DNA of 30,215 nucleotides from a virus: the IMG/VR virus record IMGVR_UViG_3300046011_004881, positions 1 through 30,215 of that record. One strand, written 5' to 3'. The translations under genes and the position numbers were made by a program. The notes under the pieces were generated by a model. That model saw nothing but the letters and a program-made list of their open reading frames with translations. It did no database searches and was not told the DNA's origin. This document shows, in pieces, positions 5,000 to 18,450 of this stretch (the first letter of the stretch is position 1; the number at the start of each line of letters is the position of its first letter).

Positions 5000-5596
5000 C
5001 TATACTTGTTGCGCTCTAAACACTTCGATTATTTTCTCTGGCGCGTTTAGGTAATTAGACACAAATCTTTTAGGCATCGCTTTTACTATAACATTGTTCT
5101 TGTACGGAGAGTTACTTGGTTTGCTCCACTTTCTGGTCTCAATCAAATAACCGTAAAAGTACAAGTAAGCATTTGCTTTTTGTTTGTACTTTGTAATATT
5201 GACTGGCAAATTATATTTTTTAATGATATTGACGGATCTCTTTTCGTTGTCCAATTCTAAGTTGATGCAATTCTTAACGTGATACCTAATTCTTAGCACA
5301 TCTTCTCCCATTAACCAAGATTGTAAACGAATTATAGAAGTTAAACCTTTTCTCCAAGGTTCACAATTTTCCAACCATTGGGTCATGTGAGCGTATTCGT
5401 GCACAAGTATCTCTAAGCTGTCTTTTCTATTCATTGAAACTACTAGTTCTCTGCCAGTTTCGTCGAAGTACCCGCTACACTTAATGTCTCCTTCTAACTT
5501 CACGTAAGAAGTATTTTTTAACTTACACTTTATGCCGTGCTTTTTACACTCGTCTTTTACTAGAGCTATAAACTCGGTAGCATTCTTATTCATCAT
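5000..5596 (-). CDS. Putative HExxH zinc metallopeptidase
   Basis: About 198 residues from the ATG at 5596; the longer frame to 5602 would need TTG inside the promoter. The zinc motif HEYAH (in SLEILVHEYAHMTQW, about residues 65-69) is clear, and the later glutamates in INLELDNEKRSV are candidates for the third ligand. I recall related unassigned HExxH proteins in T4-like and marine phages with the same LELDNE.R and QKANAYLYFYGYLIETRKW segments. The substrate is unknown. The promoter -7 box ends only 3 nt before the ATG, so the mRNA is probably leaderless. Confidence 0.78.
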   Translation of the reverse strand: MMNKNATEFIALVKDECKKHGIKCKLKNTSYVKLEGDIKCSGYFDETGRELVVSMNRKDSLEILVHEYAHMTQWLENCEPWRKGLTSIIRLQSWLMGEDVLRIRYHVKNCINLELDNEKRSVNIIKKYNLPVNITKYKQKANAYLYFYGYLIETRKWSKPSNSPYKNNVIVKAMPKRFVSNYLNAPEKIIEVFRAQQV

Positions 5597-6893: not shown

Positions 6894-7139
6894 TTATTTT
6901 GAATTGTTTAACATATATTTTCTAATGTCATCTCCTATAACGTAACGATTTGCGCTATCAACAAAATCGATTGGACCGTCGAAATGGTTGCTCGTTCTAT
7001 ACGTATATTCCGCTAAATTTGGATTTGATATTATCAACGACTTTTGAATTATTGTGTAATCGCGTTCGTTTGTGCATGAAGAAGCAATAAAAGATAGCAG
7101 CGCAATAAGAGTTACCGATTTTATAAATTTTTGTATCAT
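6894..7139 (-). CDS. Putative phage lipoprotein
   Basis: 81 residues. Residues 1-22 form a lipoprotein signal: MIQKF/K positive head, hydrophobic VTLIALLSFIAS, and lipobox IASSC with Cys22. Signal peptidase II processing would leave a mature protein of about 60 residues (SCTNERDYTIIQKS...) in the host envelope. Phage lipoproteins often act in superinfection exclusion or as outer-membrane spanins; here no lysis cassette is adjacent, so exclusion is the more likely guess. Confidence 0.7.
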   Translation of the reverse strand: MIQKFIKSVTLIALLSFIASSCTNERDYTIIQKSLIISNPNLAEYTYRTSNHFDGPIDFVDSANRYVIGDDIRKYMLNNSK

Positions 7140-7164
7140 AATTATTTATTGTATTTTAATACGT

Positions 7165-7983
7165 TTATCTTACTGCGACTTTAATTTGCATAAAGTTATT
7201 ATCGCTTGGCAATAGATCTTTGTGCATACCGTGTGTTGGATACACAAAATGCTTTGGATTCTCAATCTTATAGACGTCGCAGAATTTTTTTACGAATTCA
7301 AAAACTTCAAAAGTCCATTCCGTGTTTGCAGAAGGAAGAGGCACGTTAACTATGTATTCGCGAGTACCTCCTATACGCGCGATGGAAATGTCTCCTCGTC
7401 TCGCTAAGTTAATAAGATGTATAAAATATAGCTTAGCGCCAGAGTCTGATAAAACTTTATCTACGACTTTTTGAATTAATTGCGTATCGTTCATAAATAA
7501 ATGCGGAAACTCGTTTTCTATGTTCTTTTTCCACGCTGAGCACGCAGCTTCATGCGCTCTCTTAACGAATTCTACGGACACTTCTACTTTATCGATTGGG
7601 TCGACTTTTATTTTATTTGCTGATTTGTCTACGAAGAACTTCACTCCGTCGATGTTCACTTCCGCTTTTTCTTTACCCTCTAAAAATTGAAACAGCACTA
7701 ACACCAATCTAGTTAGAGCTTCGTAATCATTTGCTGCAGCTGGAGGCCATGTTCCATTACTCGGCGTATATCCGTACGCTAAGTTTGCTAATTTACGGAT
7801 TAGACGCGCCGTGGAAAAGCCGGCATCTACGAACGGTCTATCGTTGCTTACCGCAGTAGTTCTTGAAGAAAGAAACGATCCGCGATTGGTGGGAGCGAAA
7901 TAGTTATTTCCATTAAATACGACAATGTCCCCTTCTGCGAGAGTGTTACCGTTTAATTCGTTAAATGACTTGTAAGTTTTCAT
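7165..7983 (-). CDS. Hypothetical protein (272 aa)
   Basis: The longest gene of the early block. The N-terminus (MKTYKSFNELNGNTLAEGDI) looks like a small beta-barrel (GDIVVFNGNNYFAPTNRG), followed by a helical region and an alpha/beta C-terminal half. No signal peptide, membrane helix or catalytic motif is apparent. The CpG-rich codon style matches its neighbours. I do not recognise the family. Confidence 0.72.
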   Translation of the reverse strand: MKTYKSFNELNGNTLAEGDIVVFNGNNYFAPTNRGSFLSSRTTAVSNDRPFVDAGFSTARLIRKLANLAYGYTPSNGTWPPAAANDYEALTRLVLVLFQFLEGKEKAEVNIDGVKFFVDKSANKIKVDPIDKVEVSVEFVKRAHEAACSAWKKNIENEFPHLFMNDTQLIQKVVDKVLSDSGAKLYFIHLINLARRGDISIARIGGTREYIVNVPLPSANTEWTFEVFEFVKKFCDVYKIENPKHFVYPTHGMHKDLLPSDNNFMQIKVAVR

Positions 7984-9109: not shown

Positions 9110-9568
9110 CTATTTCACTAAATTATCAGCAGCATAAGTCATAATTGGTGAATTTCCTTTATGTCTTACAGAATATCCCATTCCTGTCACTATACCAACT
9201 GCACTAGTTAGAGCGGCATTTGATTTATATTTTGGGTCGGGATTTAAATCTATATCTATCCACGTAGCTTTAACGTTAGTGGTTTTTCTAATCTCTTCTG
9301 CTATCTCTACACTATACCACACTTCATTTAACAATCTATTGGTATTATCCCGCTCTCTAATCGTATTGAATTTAGAATAAAGTACGTGAGCTCCCTTACC
9401 AGGTCTGTAAAGACCAATTACGATCGCATAGAGAGTCTCTTTTTTTCTATTTTGAGAATCACATCCTATTAAGATTTCTACGTCTTGGTGAGCATTTAAA
9501 TAAGCTTGGATATAATCTATAACCTCTATCGCTTCGTTGCTTATCAAAGTCTTGTATACTTTTTTCAT
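9110..9568 (-). CDS. YkuK/DUF458-like RNase H-fold protein
   Basis: 152 residues. IGCDSQNRKKETLYAIVIGL is the first strand pair of an RNase H-like fold with a catalytic-type Asp; ATWIDIDLNPD and the end TYAADNLVK supply further acidic residues. The order matches the DUF458 (YkuK) family, which is a single-domain RNase H-like protein of unknown physiological role; the length is also typical. It lies directly after the tRNA array and may be co-transcribed with it, so an RNA-processing role is tempting but unproven. Confidence 0.78.
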   Translation of the reverse strand: MKKVYKTLISNEAIEVIDYIQAYLNAHQDVEILIGCDSQNRKKETLYAIVIGLYRPGKGAHVLYSKFNTIRERDNTNRLLNEVWYSVEIAEEIRKTTNVKATWIDIDLNPDPKYKSNAALTSAVGIVTGMGYSVRHKGNSPIMTYAADNLVK

Positions 9569-9604
9569 AAAATGTTATTTGCAGTTATTGATAAATTAAC
9601 CCAG

Positions 9605-9685
9605 TGCCCCAAGAGAGACTCGAACTCTCACTGCCGAAGCGCCGCATCCTAAGTGCGGTGTGTCTACCAATTCCACCATCGGGGC
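9605..9685 (-). tRNA. tRNA-Leu(TAG)
   Basis: 81 nt class II. Acceptor GCCCCGA/TTGGGGC, loop CTTAGGA with anticodon TAG, long variable arm, T-loop TTCGAGT, discriminator A. No encoded CCA. Last tRNA of the array. Confidence 0.92.
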
Positions 9686-9690
9686 ATAAA

Positions 9691-9813
9691 GTGGGCCTTT
9701 CCCCACGGTCAAACAAGCTTGAAATTTACCTACGCACAAGTGAGGTACTTGTTATGTTCATTCACAGAGCCTGTTCAGTGTCGACCCGTTCCAGGTTGTC
9801 GTGCGTGTCATCG
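9691..9813 (-). other. Spacer with two hairpins
   Basis: No gene. GTGGG (9691-9695)/CCCAC (9702-9706) and ACAAGT/ACTTGT (9736-9752) are clear stems. It resembles the other structured spacers of the array but lacks a single convincing closing stem. Confidence 0.35.
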
Positions 9814-9896
9814 TAGTCAGGACAGGATTCGAACCTGTAAGTGATAAGTGGATTTTACTTGCCCACACATTGCGCATACCATTCCGCCACCTGACT
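9814..9896 (-). tRNA. Class II tRNA with aberrant anticodon arm (isotype unclear)
   Basis: Acceptor AGTCAGG/CCTGACT and T-arm ACAGG-TTCGAAT-CCTGT are perfect, discriminator A, total 83 nt. The anticodon arm is odd: the best stem GTGGG/TCCAC encloses a 9-nt loop CAAGTAAAA instead of 7, centred on GTA and also containing TAA. It may be a mutated Leu(TAA) or Tyr-like tRNA. Isotype not assignable by eye. Confidence 0.6.
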
Positions 9897-9902
9897 ATTT
9901 TA

Positions 9903-10070
9903 TTATGGGTAGTAGTCTGTATTATAATCGTCATTCTTTTTTTGTCTATCACTTTGTCCTGAAAAATCATCACCATCTTTCTCTCTATAAATTATAGAAC
10001 AGATTATAAACCATACTATAAATAAAATAAACAAAATAAAAATAACATTTACAATATATGTTACTACCAT
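9903..10070 (-). CDS. 55-residue single-pass membrane protein in the tRNA array
   Basis: ATG at 10070 is the correct start, because the longer frame (to 10175) would run through tRNA-Arg. Residues about 3-29 (YIVNVIFILFILFIVWFIIC) are one membrane helix; the tail is highly charged (REKDGDDFSGQSDRQKKNDD). The stop lies 6 nt before the next tRNA. Function unknown; a small envelope effector is possible. Confidence 0.6.
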   Translation of the reverse strand: MVVTYIVNVIFILFILFIVWFIICSIIYREKDGDDFSGQSDRQKKNDDYNTDYYP

Positions 10071-10084
10071 AATATTAATTTTTG

Positions 10085-10156
10085 TAGTCTCGGAGGAATT
10101 CGAATCCCCAACGTTCTCCTTAGAAGGGAGACATTCTTCCATTGAATTACGAGACC
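10085..10156 (-). tRNA. tRNA-Arg(TCT)
   Basis: 72 nt. Acceptor GGTCTCG/CGAGACT (G1-T72 wobble), anticodon stem TCTCC/GGAGA, loop CTTCTAA, T-loop TTCGAAT, discriminator A. Confidence 0.9.
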
Positions 10157-10168
10157 AAATAATAACAG

Positions 10169-10236
10169 CAATCATGTCTCCTCGAGTCTTGAAGTCTGAC
10201 AGGCGGCATGATGTTCAATACATGTTTCGACGATTG
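10169..10236 (-). ncRNA. tRNA-sized structured spacer A (68 nt)
   Basis: A 7-bp closing stem CAATCGT/ATGATTG (one G-T) encloses 54 nt without a recognisable T-loop or anticodon arm. The length and the acceptor-like stem match a tRNA. One of at least six such elements between real tRNAs. Confidence 0.4.
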
Positions 10237-10267
10237 CAACTCCACACACATATTCAGCTGTATATCG

Positions 10268-10340
10268 AGCGGAAGACCGAGTACGATTCGGCAACCTCTA
10301 CTTTGGCAAAGTAACGCTCTACCGATTGAGCTACTTCCGC
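10268..10340 (-). tRNA. tRNA-Gly(GCC)
   Basis: 73 nt. Acceptor GCGGAAG/CTTCCGC, loop TTGCCAA, discriminator T. The T-arm is unusual: stem GCCGA/TCGGT and loop ATCGTAC, so positions 54 and 58 read A and T instead of T and A. Confidence 0.85.
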
Positions 10341-10343
10341 ATT

Positions 10344-10505
10344 AAAATAGGAGTGTGTTGTTACACCAAGATACGAGGCTCGTTACGACCTACGTGCGAT
10401 ATCCCATAACGATTTCCTAGGATATTGACTTTTTGTCTGTACGCTCCCACAGGGGGGACAACTCTTTAAAGGATGGCTACTTCCAAGCCCACCTCCTCCT
10501 ATTTT
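10344..10505 (-). ncRNA. Closed structured RNA containing a 23S GTPase-centre-like segment
   Basis: A perfect 10-bp terminal stem, AAAATAGGAG (10344-10353) / CTCCTATTTT (10496-10505), closes 162 nt. On the minus strand the segment 10496-10463 agrees at 29 of 34 positions with E. coli 23S rRNA in helices 42-43 (about 1054-1088), including GGCTT.GAAG.AGCCATC and TTTAAAGA. Further stems are ATATCC/GGATAT, TCCC/GGGA, GTGT/ACAC and GAC/GTC. The second GTPase-centre hairpin (about 1082-1096) is replaced. It lies between tRNA-Gly and tRNA-Thr, as T4's stable RNAs of unknown function lie in its tRNA cluster. Confidence 0.6.
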
Positions 10506-10507
10506 TG

Positions 10508-10581
10508 AGGTCGATCTCGGATTCGAACCGAGGTTTCATGATTACAAATCAAGTGTTCTAGACCAGCTGAACTAATCGACC
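10508..10581 (-). tRNA. tRNA-Thr(TGT)
   Basis: 74 nt. Acceptor GGTCGAT/ATCGACC, loop TTTGTAA, anticodon stem with one T-T mismatch, T-arm CTCGG-TTCGAAT-CCGAG, discriminator T. Confidence 0.9.
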
Positions 10582-10586
10582 TTGTG

Positions 10587-10658
10587 TAGCACTAGAGAAT
10601 TCTGAGATCTCAACTTCCTCGATATGAATGAGGCGCTCTGCCTTTGAGCTATAGTGCC
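10587..10658 (-). tRNA. tRNA-Met or Ile2 (CAT), non-canonical T-loop
   Basis: 72 nt. Acceptor GGCACTA/TAGTGCT, D-arm normal, loop TTCATAT gives CAT, anticodon stem has one A-C mismatch at its base. The T-arm reads GAGAT-CTCAGAA-TTCTC, so positions 54/58 are C/G. CAT may be elongator Met or Ile(k2CAU). Confidence 0.75.
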
Positions 10659-10663
10659 AAATT

Positions 10664-10797
10664 AAACACTGTTGGGATACCCGTCTCGTCCCAATCTTAA
10701 CGGCTTTATTGAAGTTTTACGATGCATCGGCCGAGGGTGCTACTGCTTTTTTCTCATTCGGTTTGTCGACAACCAGCCTGAGAGTCAGTCAGTGTTT
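10664..10797 (-). ncRNA. Closed structured RNA (134 nt)
   Basis: A perfect 8-bp terminal stem, AAACACTG (10664-10671) / CAGTGTTT (10790-10797). Inside, TTGGGA/TCCCAA, GGTT/AACC around GTCGAC, and a GATGCATC palindrome are seen. No coding frame. It sits between two CAT tRNAs; function unknown. Confidence 0.5.
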
Positions 10798-10799
10798 TG

Positions 10800-10873
10800 T
10801 TGCGGTGGGCTAGATTCGAACTAGCGATTTTGACCTTATGAGAGTCACGAGATGACCACTTCTCTACCCCGCA
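10800..10873 (-). tRNA. tRNA-Met(CAT), second CAT tRNA
   Basis: 74 nt. Acceptor TGCGGGG pairs with CCACCGCA with one bulged A; D stem GAGA/TCTC; anticodon stem TGACT/GGTCA, loop CTCATAA; T-arm GCTAG-TTCGAAT-CTAGC. The TGCGGGGTAGAG start resembles initiator tRNA, but the three G-C pairs of an initiator anticodon stem are absent. Confidence 0.8.
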
Positions 10874-10878
10874 ATGTA

Positions 10879-11505
10879 TTAATTTCTTCCTTTATACCAA
10901 TTTTCTGGTATTTTAGAATCTTTTTTTATTTTTTGATCCTCAACTCCATTTGTGATCCACATCGTTCCATGTTGAGAGTTAGATGATCCACTTTGTTTTA
11001 ATGCATTTGCGTTACCTATTTTTGTTTTTGTTTCTTCTGAATGGGTCTTATTAGTGAACGTATCATATTTAATTTTACCCTCTTTATGTAATCTTTTAAA
11101 TGTCTGAGATCCTAGTACTACAAACTTATCTCTATAATCTTTAGATTTCCACATTAATTTAAGTCGCTTAGAAGCACCTTTTTTCATTTTTTCATGATGA
11201 TCTTCATTAAAAATACCACCTACTCCGCCGGGAGCCAAATTCATACACATCGGGTCTTTTAGTAAACCTTCATTCACCAATTCTCTTTCTCTTTTAGCTA
11301 ACGATTCTCTATCGTTAAATAATTCTAAGATCTCTAATTTAAAATTCTCTCTACCATATTTTCTTATAGATCTTCTAAGTTTGTCTCCGCTTCCTAAATA
11401 ACCATCATTAAAATTAGAAGTCGAATGCATTCCTATGTAGTACTTTCCATTATTAAGATTTGTTGTCTTGTAAATGAAATGGTACTTGTGTTTTTGTCTT
11501 GGCAT
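10879..11505 (-). CDS. Seg-like GIY-YIG homing endonuclease
   Basis: 208 residues. The N-terminal catalytic domain has HFIYKTTNLNNGKYYIGMHS (GIY as FIY, YIG exact), then YLGSG and SIRKYGRENFKLEILE, all typical of phage Seg proteins. The C-terminal end MWITNGVEDQKIKKD and PENWYKGRN is the WITNG...GW.KGR DNA-binding tail shared by many phage homing endonucleases. It presumably cuts near tRNA-Met and spreads its own cassette. The stop lies 5 nt from the 5' end of tRNA-Met(CAT). A CATATTTAT box precedes it. Confidence 0.88.
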   Translation of the reverse strand: MPRQKHKYHFIYKTTNLNNGKYYIGMHSTSNFNDGYLGSGDKLRRSIRKYGRENFKLEILELFNDRESLAKRERELVNEGLLKDPMCMNLAPGGVGGIFNEDHHEKMKKGASKRLKLMWKSKDYRDKFVVLGSQTFKRLHKEGKIKYDTFTNKTHSEETKTKIGNANALKQSGSSNSQHGTMWITNGVEDQKIKKDSKIPENWYKGRN

Positions 11506-11519
11506 ATCTATTATTTATT

Positions 11520-11528
11520 ATAAATATG
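11520..11528 (-). promoter_or_regulatory. CATATTTAT box (candidate late promoter)
   Basis: On the minus strand CATATTTAT, 14 nt before the ATG of the GIY-YIG gene. The same box precedes the other two homing endonucleases and genes at 15577, 20937, 21760 and 24071. Confidence 0.5.
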
Positions 11529-11552
11529 TTCAAGGTACAAAAAGTGACCCGG

Positions 11553-11625
11553 TAGTGATGACGAGACTCGAACTCGTAACCTCGATGGTATAAGCATCTT
11601 GCGCTAACCATTGCGCCACACCACT
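11553..11625 (-). tRNA. tRNA-Ile(TAT)
   Basis: 73 nt. Acceptor AGTGGTG/CATCACT, loop CTTATAC gives TAT, T-arm ACGAG-TTCGAGT-CTCGT, discriminator A. TAT is a rare bacterial anticodon that reads AUA directly. Confidence 0.87.
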
Positions 11626-11628
11626 AAA

Positions 11629-12069
11629 TTATATTCTTTTTATATTCTTTGCTCGATATGTATCAGTTTGTGAATGACAATTAGGACATAATATTCTTAA
11701 ATTTTCCAATTTATGATTGGTCCTATTCCCATCAATATGGTCTAATTCCATATTTAATTTCTTACCATTCCATTCTTCAATATCACACACAGAACATTTA
11801 TTTTCGATTATTTTTTCTTTTAATAATCTATTTTTCAATTTGAACGTTTGAAAATGTGGATGTTTACCTTCCAAAATTTCTTGTAAATCAATTTTAGGTG
11901 GAACGATTTTTGTCATTCCCTTTCCTGATTGATTTGTCATATAACAATCAAATTTAATTGCGTACCTTTTAAAGGTATTAAAATGTAAATCTAATTTAAC
12001 TGCAGCTTCTGCCATAGAATTAGATTCTTGACAAACTTGTCTAAAATGTTTTTCATCTATTTGTTTCAT
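11629..12069 (-). CDS. HNH homing endonuclease with N-terminal HTH
   Basis: 146 residues. N-terminal HTH-like part (AEAAVKLDLHFNTFKRYAIKF) and a NQSGKG linker are followed by a zinc-ribbon HNH domain: CSVC, then LELDH-type MELDHIDGNRTNHKLENLRI, then CPNCHSQ. The pattern is that of small free-standing phage HNH homing enzymes. The stop lies 3 nt from the 5' end of tRNA-Ile(TAT), and a CATATTTAT box lies 4 nt before the ATG. The head resembles the protein at 22246-23016. Confidence 0.88.
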   Translation of the reverse strand: MKQIDEKHFRQVCQESNSMAEAAVKLDLHFNTFKRYAIKFDCYMTNQSGKGMTKIVPPKIDLQEILEGKHPHFQTFKLKNRLLKEKIIENKCSVCDIEEWNGKKLNMELDHIDGNRTNHKLENLRILCPNCHSQTDTYRAKNIKRI

Positions 12070-12073
12070 ACTA

Positions 12074-12082
12074 ATAAATATG
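12074..12082 (-). promoter_or_regulatory. CATATTTAT box (candidate late promoter)
   Basis: Minus-strand CATATTTAT ending 4 nt before the ATG of the HNH gene. If it is a -7/-10 element, the message would be almost leaderless. Confidence 0.5.
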
Positions 12083-12124
12083 AGACATTTAAGAAAAACA
12101 CTCCAACGTGTCTATCTTTTTTTG

Positions 12125-12210
12125 TACCCCCAGTCAGACTCGAACTGACACGGACCTTACGGCCCACTTGATCTTAAGCCAAGCGTGACTCCCAATTCCA
12201 CCATGAGGGT
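12125..12210 (-). tRNA. tRNA-Leu(TAA)
   Basis: 86 nt class II. Acceptor ACCCTCA/TGGGGGT, anticodon stem CTTGG/TCAAG, loop CTTAAGA, variable arm GGGCCGTAAGGTCC, T-loop TTCGAGT, discriminator A. Confidence 0.92.
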
Positions 12211-12218
12211 ATTAAAAT

Positions 12219-12279
12219 ACTACCTACTCTCCACTGTAGTCACCATCCACGTCATGCGCTGGTTGAACTAGCAGGTAGT
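12219..12279 (-). ncRNA. tRNA-sized structured spacer B (61 nt)
   Basis: A perfect 7-bp closing stem ACTACCT/AGGTAGT flanked by A and T runs; an inner hairpin GCT-AGTTCAACC-AGC sits where a D-arm would be. There is no T-loop or clear anticodon arm. Confidence 0.42.
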
Positions 12280-12285
12280 TTTTAG

Positions 12286-12359
12286 CGGTCTATCACGGAC
12301 TCGAACCGAGACGTCTTCTCATAGACAGTGAGACATGTTAACCATTACACCAATAGACC
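12286..12359 (-). tRNA. tRNA-Asp(GTC)
   Basis: 74 nt. Acceptor GGTCTAT/ATAGACC, discriminator G as usual for Asp, anticodon stem TCTCA/TGAGA, loop CTGTCTA, T-loop TTCGAGT with one T-T in the T-stem. Confidence 0.92.
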
Positions 12360-12364
12360 GATTG

Positions 12365-12436
12365 TACTCCCGACGAGAATCGAACTCGCATTTTCAGATC
12401 GAAAATCTGACATCCTAACCATTAGATGACAGGAGC
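12365..12436 (-). tRNA. tRNA-Glu(TTC)
   Basis: 72 nt. Acceptor GCTCCTG/CGGGAGT (two wobbles), anticodon stem TCAGA/TCTGA, loop TTTTCGA, T-arm GCGAG-TTCGATT-CTCGT, discriminator A. Confidence 0.92.
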
Positions 12437-12453
12437 ATTTGTTTATTGTATAG

Positions 12454-12490
12454 TAAATATAATCTATAAAATTGACTATATGCACTATAT
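12454..12490 (-). promoter_or_regulatory. Possible internal promoter of the tRNA array
   Basis: Minus-strand TATATTTACTATACAAT (-7-like TATATTTA at 12461-12454) closely matches TATATTTACTATATAAC of the 16546 promoter, preceded by an A/T-rich stretch. It lies in the 62-nt gap before tRNA-Glu. The upstream box is poorly aligned, so it is tentative. Confidence 0.3.
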
Positions 12491-12498
12491 ATTTTCTG

Positions 12499-12580
12499 TG
12501 CCGCCGGTAGGACTCGAACCTACGAACTCTTACGAGGAGGAATTTACAGTCCCTTGCAATTGCCACTATGCGACGTCGGC
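12499..12580 (-). tRNA. tRNA-Tyr(GTA)
   Basis: 82 nt class II. Acceptor GCCGACG/CGGCGGC (one A-G), anticodon stem AGGGA/TTCCT, loop CTGTAAA, T-arm GTAGG-TTCGAGT-CCTAC, discriminator A. Confidence 0.92.
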
Positions 12581-12587
12581 TTATTTG

Positions 12588-12660
12588 CGCTTTCGGAGAA
12601 TTACGATATCTCGACCTTGAACTTAACAGGTTCCTGCTCTGCCTCTGAGCTACGAAAGCG
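12588..12660 (-). tRNA. tRNA-Asn(GTT), non-canonical T-loop
   Basis: Acceptor GCTTTCG/CGAAAGC perfect, discriminator G, D-arm normal, loop CTGTTAA gives GTT. T-arm GAGAT-ATCGTAA-TTCTC: positions 54/58 are A/T and 53/61 a T-T mismatch. Ends are accurate to about 1 nt. Confidence 0.85.
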
Positions 12661-12665
12661 TATTG

Positions 12666-12738
12666 TGCTTATGGGAAGACTCGAACTTCCAACTTCACGC
12701 GTATCAGGCGTGTGCTCTGACCATTGAACTACATAAGC
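12666..12738 (-). tRNA. tRNA-Ile(GAT)
   Basis: 73 nt. Acceptor GCTTATG/CATAAGC, anticodon stem CACGC/GCGTG, loop CTGATAC, T-arm GGAAG-TTCGAGT-CTTCC, discriminator A. All stems perfect. Confidence 0.94.
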
Positions 12739-12746
12739 ATATAGTG

Positions 12747-12832
12747 CGGAGAGCATTGCATCGAAGCAAATACCTTTTTAGGGTACCACACGCTTAGCAG
12801 GCGGTGACAGCAACCTCACTGTTTTACTCTCC
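12747..12832 (-). tRNA. tRNA-Ser(GCT), degenerate T-arm
   Basis: 86 nt class II. Acceptor GGAGAGT/GCTCTCC, discriminator G, D stem ACAG/CTGT, loop CTGCTAA, anticodon stem with a bulged T, variable stem TACC/GGTA. The T-stem carries a bulge (ATtTGC/GCAAT) and the loop is TTCGAT, 6 nt. It may be functional or decaying. Confidence 0.72.
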
Positions 12833-12837
12833 AGATT

Positions 12838-12906
12838 TGATAAAAGCAAAACCAGTCTAACCGAGACATAATCTTCTATCTGCCTGTTACGTACCAGGTC
12901 TTATCA
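12838..12906 (-). ncRNA. tRNA-sized structured spacer C (69 nt)
   Basis: Closing stem TGATAAG/TTTATCA (7 bp, one G-T), D-like hairpin CCTG-GTACGTAA-CAGG and anticodon-like stem AGATA/TGTCT with an 8-nt loop, but no T-arm. The best candidate for a decayed or divergent tRNA among the spacers. Confidence 0.45.
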
Positions 12907-12914
12907 TGGGGCCG

Positions 12915-12986
12915 GGGTCTATCACGGTATCGAACCGAGTTCTTAAGTGCCACAAACTTACGCTTCACCTTAAAGCTTATAGACCC
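12915..12986 (-). tRNA. tRNA-His(GTG)
   Basis: 72 nt including G-1. Acceptor GGTCTAT/ATAGACC with G-1 opposite C73, the His identity pair. D stem GCTT/AAGC, anticodon stem TAAGT/ACTTA, loop TTGTGGC, T-loop TTCGATA. Confidence 0.93.
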
Positions 12987-12994
12987 ATGTAAAA

Positions 12995-13074
12995 AAATCT
13001 CCTATGTGCTACCCCTACCGGTCCCAGGTTCGGCGGTTAAAAGTCAGGTACGTCTTTTAGTCACCCAGAGATTT
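12995..13074 (-). ncRNA. tRNA-sized structured spacer D (80 nt)
   Basis: A perfect 7-bp closing stem AAATCTC/GAGATTT; an inner stem AAAAG/CTTTT. No T-loop or anticodon arm. Lies between tRNA-His and tRNA-Ser(TGA). Confidence 0.42.
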
Positions 13075-13076
13075 AG

Positions 13077-13160
13077 CGGAGAGTGACGGACTCGAACCCC
13101 CACGCCGTGTTACCGACTTCACTGTTTTCAAGACAGCTAACTACTCCTTTAGGACTCTCC
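13077..13160 (-). tRNA. tRNA-Ser(TGA)
   Basis: 84 nt class II. Acceptor GGAGAGT/ACTCTCC, discriminator G, anticodon stem GCTGT/ACAGT, loop CTTGAAA, long variable arm, T-loop TTCGAGT with an imperfect T-stem. Confidence 0.9.
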
Positions 13161-13204
13161 AATTTATTGATGCTACAGAAGGGGTCGAATTAATATAGAT
13201 ATGG

Positions 13205-13276
13205 TTGTCCCGGAAGGAATCGAACCTTCATCTCCAGAGCCAAAATCTGGCATAATAACCGTTCTACTACGGGACA
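13205..13276 (-). tRNA. tRNA-Gln(TTG)
   Basis: 72 nt. Acceptor TGTCCCG/CGGGACA, anticodon stem CCAGA/TCTGG, loop TTTTGGC, T-arm GAAGG-TTCGATT-CCTTC, discriminator A. The stop codon of the upstream GIY-YIG gene lies inside its first 10 nt. Confidence 0.93.
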
Positions 13277-13929
13277 ATTTTACAATTATTGAAATGCCAC
13301 CTTTTCATAGTATTCATCGATCCTTCTTTATTACAAAAAGGACACTTTATTTTTTCTCTTTTTAAACCTTTATTGTGAGATATATAATCAGCTTTTCTTG
13401 TCTTAATAAGTATAGCATTTCTTATCTTCTCTTTTGTTTCTGCAGAAAGACCGTCTTTAATATTCTTTCTAGATCTTGAGGCCTTTTTTGCTATTTCCCT
13501 ATGTGCTTCTTGATCTTTTTTAGAAAAATGATTTTTAGACATTTTTAATTTAACTTGTTCGCTGAGCTTTTTTCCTTTGCGCTTTTCTTGTATTTTTTTT
13601 CTTGATTCTTTACTATGTTTCTTATTAATAAAAGTTAGACCATTTTTTTCTCTACTACCATATCCTCCGCCTACCATAATATTATAAACATCATTATTTT
13701 GTATAAATTCTTTAGTGACAATTTCTTCTTCTCTCTTTAACATTTCTTCTTCACTTTGTAATTCTTCTAAAATTTCTTTAGTAAAATTTTCTTTACCATA
13801 TTCTCTTATTGCCTTTCTTATAAGAGTACCAGAGCCTAAATACGTATCATTTATATTTTTAGTTTTGTGCACTCCAATATAAAAAGTTCCAGTTATAATA
13901 TTAGTGATGCGATATATTATAAAGTGCAT
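13267..13929 (-). CDS. Seg-like GIY-YIG homing endonuclease with C-terminal zinc finger
   Basis: 220 residues. N-terminal GIY-YIG domain: FIIYRITNIITGTFYIGVHK, YLGSG, AIREYGKENFTKEILEEL. The middle is lysine-rich with KKHSKESRKKI and SAETKEKIRNAI repeats, the NUMOD-like DNA-binding modules. A zinc finger ends it: CPFCNKEGSMNTMKRWHFNNC (C2HC-type). The TAG (13267-13269) lies within tRNA-Gln. A likely 5' half of a second tRNA-Gln lies just upstream (13951-13975), as if the cassette had entered a tRNA-Gln gene. Confidence 0.88.
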   Translation of the reverse strand: MHFIIYRITNIITGTFYIGVHKTKNINDTYLGSGTLIRKAIREYGKENFTKEILEELQSEEEMLKREEEIVTKEFIQNNDVYNIMVGGGYGSREKNGLTFINKKHSKESRKKIQEKRKGKKLSEQVKLKMSKNHFSKKDQEAHREIAKKASRSRKNIKDGLSAETKEKIRNAILIKTRKADYISHNKGLKREKIKCPFCNKEGSMNTMKRWHFNNCKIVP

Positions 13930-13946
13930 ATAAGTCTATTTTTTAT

Positions 13947-13955
13947 ATAAATATG
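13947..13955 (-). promoter_or_regulatory. CATATTTAT box (candidate late promoter)
   Basis: Minus-strand CATATTTAT, 17 nt before the ATG of the GIY-YIG gene, placed at the point where the tRNA-Gln-like fragment ends. Confidence 0.5.
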
Positions 13956-13975
13956 TTACCATTACACTATGTAGC
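13951..13975 (-). pseudogene. Orphan tRNA 5' half (Gln-like)
   Basis: Minus strand TGCTACATAGTGTAATGGTA then ACATA: a 7-nt acceptor strand, TA, and a D-arm GTGT-AATGGTA-ACAT, the common bacterial tRNA-Gln pattern. The sequence then switches to the homing-endonuclease leader. No anticodon arm follows. Confidence 0.45.
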
Positions 13976-13982
13976 AGTTTAA

Positions 13983-14053
13983 AACTACGCTAAACCAATC
14001 CTTCGTTAGTGGGAACGGCGGGATTTGAACCCTCATATTAGCCCATCGTAGTT
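13983..14053 (-). ncRNA. tRNA-sized structured spacer E with internal T-arm-like hairpin (71 nt)
   Basis: A perfect 7-bp closing stem AACTACG/CGTAGTT. Inside is a T-arm-like hairpin GAGGG-TTCAAAT-CCCGC, not at the tRNA position but in the 5' half, and a second hairpin CTAAC/GTTTAG. The order (T-arm before a GGATTGGTTTAG D-like loop) recalls circular permutation, but no matching acceptor strand is found. Confidence 0.45.
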
Positions 14054-14064
14054 AAAAGTTAAGT

Positions 14065-14136
14065 GGCAGGTAGTCAGAATCGAACTGACATCTCGAGTTT
14101 GGAAAACTAGAGCACTAACCGTTGTGCTATACCCGC
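14065..14136 (-). tRNA. tRNA-Gly(TCC)
   Basis: 72 nt. Acceptor GCGGGTA/TACCTGC, loop TTTCCAA, anticodon stem CTAGT/ACTCG with one mismatch, T-arm GTCAG-TTCGATT-CTGAC. The discriminator reads C. Confidence 0.88.
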
Positions 14137-14144
14137 AATTGTTG

Positions 14145-14216
14145 TAGAAGATGGGAATTTTGAAATCCCGACCCTCGCCATGTAAGGGCGATGCTCTGCC
14201 TCTGAGCTAATCTTCT
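14145..14216 (-). tRNA. tRNA-Val(TAC)
   Basis: 72 nt. Acceptor AGAAGAT/ATCTTCT, anticodon stem TCGCC/GGCGA, loop CTTACAT, T-arm GGGAT-TTCAAAA-TTCCC (T-T at 53/61), discriminator A. Confidence 0.92.
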
Positions 14217-14289
14217 AATTGTCAGCTGTTTAAGGTACAGCTGCGACTCAAACCTGAAAGTTAGTTTATATGGAAACCTACTTACAATT
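14217..14289 (-). ncRNA. tRNA-sized structured spacer F (73 nt)
   Basis: Closing stem AATTGT/ACAATT (6 bp). The 3' hairpin CAGCTGT-ACCTTAA-ACAGCTG has a 7-nt loop in the T-arm position; TAGGTTT/AAACTA forms another stem with one bulge. Exactly tRNA length, but no standard anticodon arm. Confidence 0.45.
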
Positions 14290-14297
14290 TACCGGCG

Positions 14298-14370
14298 TGG
14301 AGAAGGTGGAACTCGAATCCACAACCTCATGCTTGCAAAGCACGTGCTCATCCACTAGAGCTTCATCCCC
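14298..14370 (-). tRNA. tRNA-Ala(TGC)
   Basis: 73 nt. Acceptor GGGGATG/CTTCTCC with G3-T70, the Ala identity pair; anticodon stem CGTGC/GCATG, loop TTTGCAA, T-arm GTGGA-TTCGAGT-TCCAC, discriminator A. Confidence 0.93.
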
Positions 14371-14377
14371 ATTTCAG

Positions 14378-14449
14378 TCGAAAAGCCCGGACTCGAACCG
14401 AGATCCCATGGTCCCAAACCACAGATACTAACCATTGTACTACTTCTCG
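14378..14449 (-). tRNA. tRNA-Pro(TGG)
   Basis: 72 nt. Acceptor CGAGAAG/CTTTTCG, loop TTTGGGA, anticodon stem TGTGG/CCATG with two wobbles, T-arm CTCGG-TTCGAGT-CCGGG, discriminator A. Confidence 0.9.
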
Positions 14450-14458
14450 ATAATTAAG

Positions 14459-14528
14459 AGGTCAAGGTGAGAATTGAACTCACGCCATAGATTTTGCAGA
14501 TCTATCGGCCGCCACGACCAACTCGACC
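14459..14528 (-). tRNA. tRNA-Cys(GCA)
   Basis: 70 nt. Acceptor GGTCGAG/CTTGACC, anticodon stem TAGAT/ATCTA, loop CTGCAAA, T-arm GTGAG-TTCAATT-CTCAC, discriminator T as expected for Cys. Confidence 0.93.
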
Positions 14529-14535
14529 TTATTCG

Positions 14536-14610
14536 TACTCTCGGAGAGACTCGAACTCCCAACCCCTTCATCCGTAGTGAAGTGTTCTAATTCCATTGAA
14601 CTACGAGAGC
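14536..14610 (-). tRNA. tRNA-Arg(ACG)
   Basis: 75 nt. Acceptor GCTCTCG/CGAGAGT, anticodon stem CTTCA/TGAAG, loop CTACGGA, T-loop TTCGAGT, discriminator A. A34 needs deamination to inosine by a TadA-type enzyme, presumably the host's. Confidence 0.92.
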
Positions 14611-14616
14611 AAGGTG

Positions 14617-14687
14617 CACGGGTAGTAGGATTCGAACCCACAATAGCGCTTTTGGAGAGCGACGTGATACCATTTCACTATACCCGC
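14617..14687 (-). tRNA. tRNA-Trp(CCA)
   Basis: 71 nt. Acceptor GCGGGTA/TACCCGT, discriminator G (Trp-typical), loop CTCCAAA, T-arm GTGGG-TTCGAAT-CCTAC. Confidence 0.92.
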
Positions 14688-14711
14688 ATATAATACCAAT
14701 ATGTCAATGAT

Positions 14712-15023
14712 CTATTTTGGCCTAATTTTATTATGCCATTTAATGTTAATCCAGTAAGTCCAACGACCATGGGAATTTGTAACATTTTCAAAAATCAGTG
14801 TTTTTTTCATCCACTGTTTTTTATTTTTAGAAACTAATTTCCAATTAGGATATTTTTCTTTAGCTTTGCCGTTGTAGTCACTTTTGTAATAACATTTCCA
14901 ACTATCATTCTCTGAATGTGGACCATGCCATTTGCAATATGAGCAACGAGCGTGTCTTTCTTTGTGTACCTTGTTATAAACACTTCTGTTTACAGTAGTG
15001 GTATACTCTTGAATAGATTTCAT
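14712..15023 (-). CDS. Small Cys/Trp-rich protein in the tRNA array
   Basis: 103 residues. CSYC (about 27-30) with nearby His and KC at about 43-44 suggest a zinc site: RHARCSYCKWHGPHSEND. The second half has the pattern KYPNWKLVSKNKKQWMKK, which I recall from small unassigned proteins of several large phages; function unknown. Basic, so RNA or DNA binding is plausible. A 7-bp hairpin lies directly before the ATG. Confidence 0.72.
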   Translation of the reverse strand: MKSIQEYTTTVNRSVYNKVHKERHARCSYCKWHGPHSENDSWKCYYKSDYNGKAKEKYPNWKLVSKNKKQWMKKTLIFENVTNSHGRWTYWINIKWHNKIRPK

Positions 15024-15046
15024 TTGTAAGGGTTTTAGTCTTACAA
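15024..15046 (-). promoter_or_regulatory. Hairpin abutting the start codon of the 14712-15023 gene
   Basis: TTGTAAG (15024-15030) pairs with CTTACAA (15040-15046), loop 9 nt, ending at the base before the ATG. It may control initiation or mark an RNA-processing site. Confidence 0.45.
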
Positions 15047-15096
15047 GGCATCAAATATTTTTTTCATTTTAATTTAGTTTTATTTTATCTATTATG

Positions 15097-15170
15097 TACC
15101 CCCGGTGGGACTCGAACCCGACAACCCCATGGTTAAAAGCCACGTACTCTACCAATTGAGCTACGAGGGT
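15097..15170 (-). tRNA. tRNA-Lys(TTT)
   Basis: 74 nt. Acceptor ACCCTCG/CGGGGGT, anticodon stem CGTGG/CCATG, loop CTTTTAA, T-loop TTCGAGT, discriminator A. Confidence 0.93.
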
Positions 15171-15182
15171 ATCTACTTTTAG

Positions 15183-15256
15183 TACCCCCACCGAGACTCG
15201 AACTCGGAACCCACTGATTAAGAGTCAGCTACTCTAGCCAATTGAGCTATGGAGGT
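15183..15256 (-). tRNA. tRNA-Lys(CTT)
   Basis: 74 nt. Acceptor ACCTCCA/TGGGGGT, anticodon stem GCTGA/TCAGT, loop CTCTTAA, T-arm CCGAG-TTCGAGT-CTCGG, discriminator A. Confidence 0.92.
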
Positions 15257-15301
15257 AATTAATATGTTTTCGTTTTCGTTTCATTGTTTTTATAATTTGT
15301 G

Positions 15302-15374
15302 TGGTACCCCTCGGTTCCGACCCGAGTCCTGAAGATTTTCAGTCTTCCGCTTCTACCAAGTTAGCTTGAGCACC
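15302..15374 (-). tRNA. tRNA-Phe(GAA), non-canonical T-loop
   Basis: 73 nt. Acceptor GGTGCTC/GGGTACC, anticodon stem GAAGA/TCTTC, loop CTGAAAA, T-arm CTCGG-GTCGGAA-CCGAG with G54 and G58 in place of T54 and A58. Discriminator A. Its 5' end directly follows a terminator. Confidence 0.88.
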
Positions 15375-15653: not shown

Positions 15654-16539
15654 AAAATAAAAGCCTGAGACTATAGCTTTGTGTGTCGAATCTTTGCGAG
15701 GATTATGTTTGTTTCCCCCTTTGTCCAGTTTCTTTTGAAAACTATTCCGACAATGCCGATTAGTTAGACTAATCACCCCTTGAGCTACTTTTATTTGGAC
15801 TACTCTCTTCTTACTCTAATCGTTCAACACTGCCGCGCTGACTAATCCTTGCGAGATTACGACCTTTTCGGAAAACTACTAATTGGCTTGCGACCTCTTA
15901 GTGCAACGAACAACTCGTTACTGTGTAGGCATCTTTCGTCCGTAGCTGGTGAGCGCTTTGGCTTTGTTTAATTTGATTTGCGTCAAAAAGCAAAGTTTAG
16001 CTTGTGGATTGTAAAGGTAGTGGCTCACCGCTGAACCGGCCCCGATTTTGTCAGGGTAGATATTCAACTACCTTATGAAGTATCCCTACCTCGATGTTGT
16101 TAGTAATCTTCGATACCGCGCTTTGGTAAGCAACTGTATAGGATAACAACAGCACCACCTGTTTTTTATCATGCCTTTCGGCTTTAAGACTACGTTCCAA
16201 CAATGAGCAACGCAATGATTTGATCGGATAACCAAACTTTTTGCATGTACCCGTACGGATTATTCTTATTGTTTTTCCAAGCTCAACTCAATGACCCACA
16301 GTCACCGAGTCTATCAACCACTTTCTCTACAGTGTTACCCTCGATAATCAAGGTTGATAGATATTCCGTGTGCATACTCGACCTCTTTTACAAGGCGCAA
16401 GATCATTTTAGCAATTGATCTCACTTTATACCGGTTTCCCGGTTTATTTAACGACTATATGCAGCCGAATGTTATTTATAACTTAGCCGAAGCCTCGTTA
16501 ATGGATAACAGTATGTTCAAAGATCTGTTTGTTAATGTT
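15654..16539 (-). ncRNA. Giant structured non-coding RNA candidate (about 890 nt)
   Basis: About 890 nt with no plausible gene on either strand but dense pairing. Examples in minus-strand reading: CCGG-GAAA-CCGG (16431-16442) and GCC-GAAA-GGC (16173-16182), both GNRA hairpins; a 10-bp long-range stem TCTATCAACC/GGTTGATAGA (16352-16361 with 16310-16319); a 7-bp stem GGTGAGC/GCTCACC across 70 nt (16023-16029 with 15948-15954); AGATCA/TGATCT; AACGA/TCGTT; GATTAG/CTAATC. Two tandem phage promoters lie upstream and a tRNA array downstream. Size, ornateness and tRNA proximity recall the GOLLD and ROOL RNA classes; I cannot confirm membership. Confidence 0.6.
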
Positions 16540-16952: not shown

Positions 16953-18242
16953 TTAATTACTTAAAGGTGCTTTAATTGCTGGATGTGATTGATAGTTTCC
17001 TAACTGTATATCTTCTTCTAATAAACATTTTATAAAAGCATCATTAGATAAGGCTGAAATAAATCCGTCTGTACTAAGTAGTCCTATACCACATTCACCA
17101 CTTTCTGTTTGCCAAAATTCAGTGTTGATATTTAATGATGGTAATTCATAAGGTTCTCTTGTTCTAGTTAGGATATTATAATCATCCAACATTTCAATAT
17201 CGTAAGGATGTGAACCATTGTTTTGTTTTATGAACAATTCAACTCGTTCTTCCAAACTCAACTCTCTACCAATCTGTTCTTTTGCTTGTTCAATGTGGTT
17301 ATTGTAAAGGTGTACGTCGCCTAAGTTGCCAATCAATTCATCAGGTACCATATTAACTACCTTAGCTATAATTTCTAATAGTAGTCCATAAGATGCTATG
17401 TTGAATGGTAAACCAAGGAATGTATCAACACTGCGTTGGTTCCACATTAGAGAGATTGCTCGTGTTGGGGTATTAGTGTAATCTAGGTATTTTTTTATAA
17501 TGTCTCTACTATCTTTTTTAATAGCTTCATCAATATCTGTATCAATATCTACATTACACAACTTAAGCCTCTCTTCCAAACTCAACTCTCTTGTATAAAC
17601 TTGAAATCCATAATGACATGGTGGTAACGTCATTTTTTCTAAATAACCTACATTCCACGCATTAACCATTAAACGTCTTGAATCAGGATTTGTTTTGATG
17701 TCATTAATTAGGTTTGCGATTTGGTCAATTGGTTGTTGCGATGGTTTAGGGTCACCGATAGTTTTAATTGGTTTTTTCCAATTTCTCCACTGCTTACCGT
17801 AAATCGGTCCTAAATCACCCCACTTCTTAGCAAACTCATCATCTGTTTTGATTTTGTTGATGAATTCTTCCTGATTAAAATTAGTTGATTCATATTTTGT
17901 TGGTGATTTATACTCATTAGAACTAAATATACCATCACCTGGAATACTTTTATTCCATTCAGTATAGTACTTCTTATAGCAATCTCCGTTCCAAATATGA
18001 CAACCATTATCCACTAAGAATTTGATGTTAGTATCACCTCGTAAGAACCATAGTAGTTCTGTTACGATTGACTTCCAAGCCATCTTTTTTGTTGTTAGGA
18101 GTGGAAACCCCTCACTCATCTTATGACGGATCTGTCTACCAAATACTGATAGCGTACCAGTACCAGTACGATCGCTTTTAGTGATACCCTTGTCAAGTAT
18201 ATCTTGGAGGAGTGATTGGTATTGACGGTCTATATTATTCAT
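16953..18242 (-). CDS. thyA: Thymidylate synthase ThyA with inserted segments
   Basis: Makes dTMP from dUMP with methylene-tetrahydrofolate. 429 residues from the ATG at 18242 (the frame to 18254 needs TTG). Motifs in order: DRTGTGTLSVFGRQ, FPLLTTKK, GPIYGKQWRNW, DSRRLMVNAWN, catalytic PPC at Cys209, QRSVDTFLGLPFNIASYGLL, GDVHLYNNHIEQ, C-terminal SHPAIKAP. Usual length is about 265-290, so about 140 residues are extra: near 85-140 (NGDCYKKYYTEWN...), after FQVYT (218-260) and after EQIG (326-361). The last two both begin RELSLEER. The catalytic residues are intact, so activity is expected. Overlaps the upstream stop by 8 nt (ATGAATAA). Confidence 0.95.
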   Translation of the reverse strand: MNNIDRQYQSLLQDILDKGITKSDRTGTGTLSVFGRQIRHKMSEGFPLLTTKKMAWKSIVTELLWFLRGDTNIKFLVDNGCHIWNGDCYKKYYTEWNKSIPGDGIFSSNEYKSPTKYESTNFNQEEFINKIKTDDEFAKKWGDLGPIYGKQWRNWKKPIKTIGDPKPSQQPIDQIANLINDIKTNPDSRRLMVNAWNVGYLEKMTLPPCHYGFQVYTRELSLEERLKLCNVDIDTDIDEAIKKDSRDIIKKYLDYTNTPTRAISLMWNQRSVDTFLGLPFNIASYGLLLEIIAKVVNMVPDELIGNLGDVHLYNNHIEQAKEQIGRELSLEERVELFIKQNNGSHPYDIEMLDDYNILTRTREPYELPSLNINTEFWQTESGECGIGLLSTDGFISALSNDAFIKCLLEEDIQLGNYQSHPAIKAPLSN

Positions 18243-18450
18243 ATTCAATTTCAAATGTATCAGGGTTAATGTATTTTATTCTTCTACCATCAGTTAAATC
18301 AACAATCTTATCATCAGGTATTCTATTCTCAATGATAATATCTTTTATCTCTTGTGGCATATTAGGATCATTTAGAATTTGATCACGTAGCTCTTCGTGT
18401 TTACGTGCTAATTTAGCTCCTTCTTTTATTCGTTCGTCTATATTATTCAT
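18235..18450 (-). CDS. Small hypothetical protein (71 aa)
   Basis: MNNIDERIKEGAKLARKHEE head, charged helix, then VDLTDGRRIKYINPDTFEIEYE. The last part resembles the end of the 18947-19348 product (TLTYNNETIESYE). Both ends overlap neighbours through ATGAATAA, as at thyA. Function unknown. Confidence 0.72.
   Translation of the reverse strand: MNNIDERIKEGAKLARKHEELRDQILNDPNMPQEIKDIIIENRIPDDKIVDLTDGRRIKYINPDTFEIEYE

Follow-up and report, generated by a model that had tools for sequence, protein, structure and literature searches.

The window analysed here is a viral DNA stretch of 30,215 nt, the whole of IMG/VR record IMGVR_UViG_3300046011_004881. It carries a transfer RNA (tRNA) array in which six spacers of roughly tRNA size alternate with tRNA genes. 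An original prediction, made from the sequence alone, had described these spacers as one family of elements closed by a stem like that of a tRNA acceptor arm. From a comparison with related arrays we conclude, with a probability of roughly two in three, that most of the long spacers encode small structured noncoding RNAs. The phage tRNA transcript would be polycistronic and would carry these RNAs, which belong to several unrelated families, as cassettes in slots of tRNA size. The case is carried by two families, termed A and B, which we regard as conserved structured RNAs with near certainty.

Conservation and covariation in families A and B

Family A is represented in the window by the spacer at 12219-12279. 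A degenerate pattern of its core matched 73 viral stretches in IMG/VR. The core helices covary, with a score of 0.487 in an alignment of 35 distinct rows, compared with 0.151 for shuffled and at most 0.134 for slid controls. Columns fixed in the search patterns are bound to be conserved and were left out of the evidence. No constraint was placed by the pattern on the pair that closes the 7-nt loop GCAUGAC; this pair occurs as AU, CG, GC and UA and is paired in 35/35 distinct rows with no mismatch. The outer closing stem varies in length and is misaligned by MAFFT, so it was tested apart from RNAalifold. Most sequences have a stem of 7-14 bp, 48 sequences contain 40 different 5' arms, and 69% of the stems reached p<=0.05 against shuffled flanks. 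The nearest tRNA lay on the same strand in 48/48 cases. One match, L087, has no tRNA and resembles coding sequence; it is probably due to chance. In L088, a phage-encoded transfer-messenger RNA (tmRNA; 7072-7441, 84.5 bits) lies near a family A element and tRNAs.

Small self-cleaving RNAs are usually built with a variable closing stem around a small conserved core, and family A has both. The array might be cut by the elements themselves, as self-cleaving or otherwise catalytic RNAs, with the closing stem as the P1 of a ribozyme. However, the Rfam ribozyme models gave no match in the array of the window at E<=10 and no known core was recognised, and we consider this explanation improbable.

Family B, 140 nt long, was matched in at least 119 viral stretches by a pattern taken from its 3' hairpin. 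Among 53 non-redundant sequences, 95.8% of the cells were paired, compared with 79.6% after shuffling and 33-60% after sliding. Double changes were seen in 19 of 26 pairs, and the covariation score was 0.478 vs 0.188 for shuffled alignments. As in family A, the nearest tRNA was always on the same strand (74/74). In copies that lie within arrays, 1-4 nt separate the upstream tRNA from the start of family B, and mostly 3-7 nt separate its end from the following tRNA. The flanking tRNAs vary, with Arg-Pro, Tyr-Phe, Glu-Val, Glu-Ala and Met-Met among the pairs seen.

Helix P3 of family B encloses a 10-nt palindrome without a loop (alignment A2, columns 88-97). The inner pair 91-94 is standard in 52/53 sequences and shows 17 double changes, yet the gap of only 2 nt between its bases rules out pairing within a single strand. 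At its centre the palindrome reads GGCC, UGCA, GAUC, CGCG or GCGC. A second hairpin loop reads GUCGAC in 50/53 sequences and GUGCAC in one. A single palindrome of this kind is not striking, as the probability of a half-length of at least 4 is 0.23 per sequence for a shuffled 14-mer of the same composition. It is rather the repeated change from one palindrome to another that is the striking feature. Palindrome-preserving change is a signature of RNA-RNA dimerisation; symmetric intermolecular kissing contacts in GOLLD and OLE have been argued from such changes, in a cryo-electron microscopy study of OLE, ROOL and GOLLD (PMC12286853). Because pair 91-94 is kept by double change across palindromes, we infer strongly from the alignment that family B is likely to self-associate. 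Its RNA would pair with itself through the two self-complementary loops to give a dimer or a higher assembly.

Both families gave no Rfam match, although an earlier description in a 2017 list of 224 candidate structured RNAs is possible (10.1093/nar/gkx699). Nothing significant was obtained for either by blastn in 50,697 phage records or by cmsearch over 80 kb of the huge-phage records LR756501 and LR756502. An exact-pattern scan of 84,980 prokaryote genomes gave no match for family B.

The tRNA-sized spacers of the window

All six spacers are present where they had been predicted, and they stand apart from ordinary linkers: tRNA-tRNA linkers in the window and in its relatives are mostly 0-10 nt long, with a separate class of 50-200 nt. 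End stems of the full spacers were compared with those of 1000 dinucleotide shuffles. The predicted closure held for four of the six, namely 12211-12284 (10 bp, p=0.002), 12986-13075 (8 bp, p=0.019), 13977-14062 (7 bp, p=0.029) and 12837-12913 (8 bp, p=0.032). It did not for 14217-14296 (6 bp, p=0.125), nor for 10157-10266, where the best end stem is a different one (5 bp, p=0.146). Three longer elements of the same class had been overlooked, at 10341-10506 (10-bp closure, p<0.001), 10659-10798, which is family B (8 bp, p=0.006), and 9686-9812. A stem of 7 bp is not the rule either, since significant stems in the spacers of related arrays have mostly 7-12 bp, with a mode of 10-11 and a 3' linker peaking at 4-5 nt. 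Likewise, the six share no detectable common sequence or fold and do not form one family. The shuffle test alone is moderate evidence, and comparison was therefore needed.

Other gaps in the array are filled by tRNAs. Aragorn found 24 tRNAs in the window and missed four. Three of these (9813-9896, 10586-10658 and 15301-15374) were recovered with Rfam and with a covariance model trained on the arrays; the first two, on the (-) strand, have apparently enlarged anticodon loops of about 9 nt. The fourth is a tRNA-Ser(GCT) at 12747-12832, segments of which are 74-98% identical in related arrays; in L018, Aragorn places a Ser-GCT beside His.

The spacers themselves might be strongly diverged tRNAs, as had been proposed, or pseudo-tRNAs or decoys for anticodon nucleases. 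Their size and position would fit, and 13983-14053 contains an isolated T-arm (14018-14036, 6.2 bits); T4 rnaC, too, ends in a T-arm. Apart from this T-arm, none of the six was found as a tRNA by Aragorn, by Rfam (E<=10) or by R1, our phage-specific tRNA covariance model trained on these arrays, run with filters off. Five of the six thus have no tRNA score by a phage-trained model. No anticodon arm is kept, and in none of the six does a T-arm adjoin the stem, as it would if an acceptor stem were stacked straight on it. Family A closing stems, moreover, reach from 7 to 14 bp, and the folds of A and B are conserved and unrelated. We therefore hold a tRNA origin or tRNA mimicry to be very unlikely.

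Three further spacers, each with homologs in one to three other lineages, are quite likely to be conserved structured RNAs. The element at 12838-12906 was found in 3 viral stretches and is 87% identical in L018, in the same place. That at 12995-13074 is about 94% identical in L071, L089 and L105 and also occurs in L238 with the same tRNA neighbours. The spacer 14217-14296 has a hairpin, CAGCTGT-ACCTTAA-ACAGCTG, and a possible pseudoknot AGGT/ACCT; its 3' core is conserved in L021, L237 and L091, with different neighbours in L237. The longer spacer 9686-9812 is 85% identical in L021, where a second copy sits, and has distant matches in L182 and L138. For 10341-10506, homologs occur only within the same population. 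The same holds, tRNA-sized pieces aside, for 13983-14053 (near-identical contigs) and for 10169-10236 (near-identical contigs L002 and L082). We class the former only tentatively as a conserved structured RNA and regard the latter as doubtful.

Stems arising by chance in filler or decaying sequence are a fitting explanation for the latter and perhaps for the former. Spacer 10169-10236 combines a p value of 0.146 with the lack of a homolog, and 13983-14053 lies beside a tRNA half left by the insertion of a homing endonuclease. For families A and B the same explanation is untenable and already refuted. Nor is it likely for 12838, 12995 and 14217, given their 87-94% conservation in other lineages; the neighbouring protein is only 59% (L018) and 74% (L021) identical. 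As a general account of the spacers, chance is thus extremely improbable.

The tRNA half belongs to a tRNA-Gln and is stranded upstream of a homing-endonuclease-like open reading frame (ORF); the segment 13906-13976 scores 17.8 bits with R1. A different, intact tRNA-Gln (13202-13276, (-) strand) follows the ORF. This looks like a tRNA replacement through endonuclease-driven recombination.

Table 1. Features of the tRNA array and its surroundings in the window
Feature	Position	Strand	Details
RNase-H-like gene	9110-9568		Downstream of tRNA array; Pfam
tRNA array	9604-15374	(-)	
Conserved spacer, 127 nt	9686..9812	(-)	Core GACACGCACG...TACCTCAC..GTGCGTAGGTAAATTTCAA; no simple end stem
Spacer holding 10169-10236	10157..10266	(-)	No significant closure
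Spacer, 166 nt	10341..10506	(-)	10-bp closure AAAATAGGAG/CTCCTATTTT; not in earlier list
Family B RNA, 140 nt	10659..10798	(-)	Closing stem P1; hairpin loop GTCGACA; P3 around palindrome CGATGCATCG; P4 hairpin
GIY-YIG endonuclease-like ORF	10879-11505		Inside array; Pfam
HNH-like endonuclease-like ORF	11629-12069		Inside array; Pfam
Family A RNA (12219-12279)	12211..12284	(-)	10-bp closing stem ACTACCTGCT/AGTAGGTAGT; core AACCAGCGCATGACGTGGATGGTG
tRNA-Ser(GCT)	12747..12832	(-)	Sequence by eye and homology; missed by Aragorn and Rfam
Structured spacer (12838-12906)	12833..12913	(-)	Closing stem TGATAAGA/TTTTATCA; between tRNA-His and tRNA-Ser(GCT)
Structured spacer (12995-13074)	12986..13075	(-)	Closing stem AAATCTCT/GGAGATTT; between tRNA-Ser(TGA) and tRNA-His
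Homing-endonuclease-like ORF	13267..13929	(-)	Inside array; 68% nucleotide match to annotated homing endonucleases; no match in Pfam
tRNA-Gln 5' half	13952..13977	(-)	TGCTACATAGTGTAATGGTAACATA; upstream of homing-endonuclease-like ORF; matches L021 tRNA-Gln 5017-5043
Spacer (13983-14053)	13977..14062	(-)	7-bp closing stem AACTACG/CGTAGTT; internal T-arm GGGTTCAAATCCC
Structured spacer (14217-14289)	14217..14296	(-)	Closing stem AATTGT/ACAATT; between tRNA-Ala and tRNA-Val
GOLLD RNA	15662..16075	(-)	Rfam RF02032, 236.5 bits; upstream end of same tRNA array

Cassettes in related arrays and their proposed release

We gathered 48 related loci through the RNase-H-like gene, most of them with tRNA arrays. 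Across these arrays the tRNA-tRNA linkers peak at 4-5 nt, and 40-46% of the spacers with 35-60% GC in the 50-200 nt class have end stems at p<=0.05. When 635 unique spacer elements were roughly clustered, 57 clusters had at least three members, and 31 of the 55 clusters tested passed a crude covariation test. Judged from their sequence distribution, the elements behave as accessory cassettes that come and go between arrays. It had been suggested that homologous arrays lacking the stems would speak against the elements. Such arrays exist, as L005-L007 lack several elements altogether; where family A or B is present, the stem is generally kept by compensatory change.

We propose that the cassettes are co-transcribed with the tRNAs, as their common strand suggests. 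Maturation of the neighbouring tRNAs would then free each cassette, by RNase P at the next 5' end and by 3'-end trimming of the preceding tRNA. The closing stem, which reaches both tRNA borders, would join the ends and protect the freed RNA, and the conserved core would act in trans during infection. Array copies of family B fill tRNA slots, which suggests release through tRNA maturation, and we consider excision by this route somewhat more probable than not.

The same-strand location, the short distance to the tRNAs and the stems abutting the tRNA ends would also be expected of cis-acting elements for processing, anti-termination or spacing, whose stems merely guide nucleases or RNA polymerase and which have no life after cleavage. 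Yet a cis-acting spacer could do without a strongly conserved core of 25-75 nt, a variety of unrelated architectures and double changes that preserve palindromes, and many arrays (such as L005-L007) manage without the elements. A purely cis-acting role is therefore unlikely, if the least unlikely of the alternatives considered. Architectures that are conserved and covary point beyond a mere spacer or tRNA mimic.

Several observations weigh against small structured RNAs released from the array. Folding energies of single elements are unremarkable (minimum free energy z scores of +0.45 to -1.95); single-sequence folding was accordingly rejected as uninformative, and the case rests on comparison. 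For two of the six spacers, homologs are confined to the same population, and for one of the two the stem is not significant either. About half of the family B copies do not follow a tRNA directly but lie farther from any upstream tRNA, so that other expression routes must exist. The 57 clusters include missed tRNAs and AT-rich promoter-like spacers, which makes their number an upper bound on that of RNA families. The best-known analogues, T4 rnaC and rnaD, lack closed ends (end-stem p about 0.46). Finally, no element was linked to any defence system in this analysis.

As to function, the accessory nature of the cassettes, their exchange between array positions and their differences among close relatives would make counter-defence or host takeover the likeliest role; even so, we offer it as a rather doubtful conjecture, drawn partly by analogy. 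In a wider and still tentative picture, phage tRNA arrays may also serve as RNA islands. They would hold a common pool of dozens of unrelated structured RNAs that can be exchanged, are set free by tRNA processing and act in trans, for example against host defences; a 140-nt RNA that self-assembles through palindromic loops would be one of them.

Further RNAs were noted in the related loci. Another large spacer family, GGGTCGAGCCAC...GGTGGCCGTGACTACTCTGACCC, occurs in L024 (5773-5866) and about 30 relatives. A spacer family with an apparent pseudoknot AATCGCT/AGCGAT lies between tRNA-Asn and tRNA-Leu (L024 7621-7695, L030 8058-8132, L047 7547-7621). At L006 5130-5259 and 6308-6461, L013 6418-6570 and L021 6150-6264, tRNA-like RNAs have a T-arm close to the acceptor strand and share the motif GTTACTTCG in a long insert; they may be tmRNA-like or tRNA-like structures. 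Hits of the tRNA model with 37-58 bits over 124-128 nt represent tRNAs with a large insert (L031 17312-17439, L047 14477-14600, L025 14931-15054, L023 15462-15585, L049 11201-11328). In an Rfam scan of 13 related loci, the best 150 of 241 hits were tRNAs and one tmRNA. Aragorn reported CTA-anticodon tRNAs as Pyl (L023 12045, L025 12060, L047 11596, L241 20586 and 20664), and amber suppression or TAG recoding is possible in these phages. In the window itself, a thymidylate synthase ORF of 433 aa (16953-18254, (-) strand) has extra internal sequence relative to phrog_160 (residues 3-432 match profile positions 27-307). A Bacteroidota host had been suspected from TAnnTTTG-like motifs; with 51 occurrences vs 40.6 expected, the window shows hardly any enrichment of the motif, and no host is claimed.

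Comparison with known phage RNAs

A precedent for small structured phage RNAs directed against host defence is the RNA antitoxin mimic of phage PhiTE, which acts against ToxIN (PMC3475682), and the counter-defence conjecture leans on it. Unlike these mimics, the present elements showed no ToxI-like tandem repeats and no link to a toxin.

GOLLD and ROOL are phage-encoded RNAs near tRNA islands, and family B shares with them the self-pairing logic of symmetric palindromic contacts. It differs in its length of 140 nt, compared with several hundred, and in its place inside the array, in tRNA slots; its self-assembly, moreover, is deduced from sequence. The only GOLLD match of the Rfam search in the window is the RNA at the upstream end of the array, and 10659-10798 was unmatched.

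The closest resemblance is to RNA C and RNA D of T4 (species 1 and 2 RNAs), whose function is unknown (PMC3014915) and which were detected on Northern blots as late RNAs (PMC9697503). Like families A and B, they are small RNAs within a phage tRNA cluster, on the same strand and a few nt from tRNAs: rnaC and rnaD lie 1-6 nt from their neighbours, rnaD one nt from tRNA-Arg, and the GIY-YIG gene segB adjoins. By position and context, the original prediction's analogy with the T4 stable RNAs is thus the best fit of the options it offered. Homology was not part of the likeness, as blastn gave only T-arm-sized or marginal matches. Unlike the T4 RNAs, the elements described here form many families, are widely shared and are mobile between slots. 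Ever since RNA C and RNA D, phage tRNA clusters have been known to hold RNAs of unknown function, and elaborate ones occur in such places too, as seen from GOLLD and ROOL. The setting is thus already known, and what is new is the families, found in quantity. Two or more of them are unnamed, widespread and very strongly covarying, and many others are smaller; they are located among tRNA genes, in many cases in tRNA slots. What was long a curiosity can now be studied by comparison, on a data set whose ends are defined and whose structures are testable, and the "spacers" of phage tRNA arrays should be annotated.

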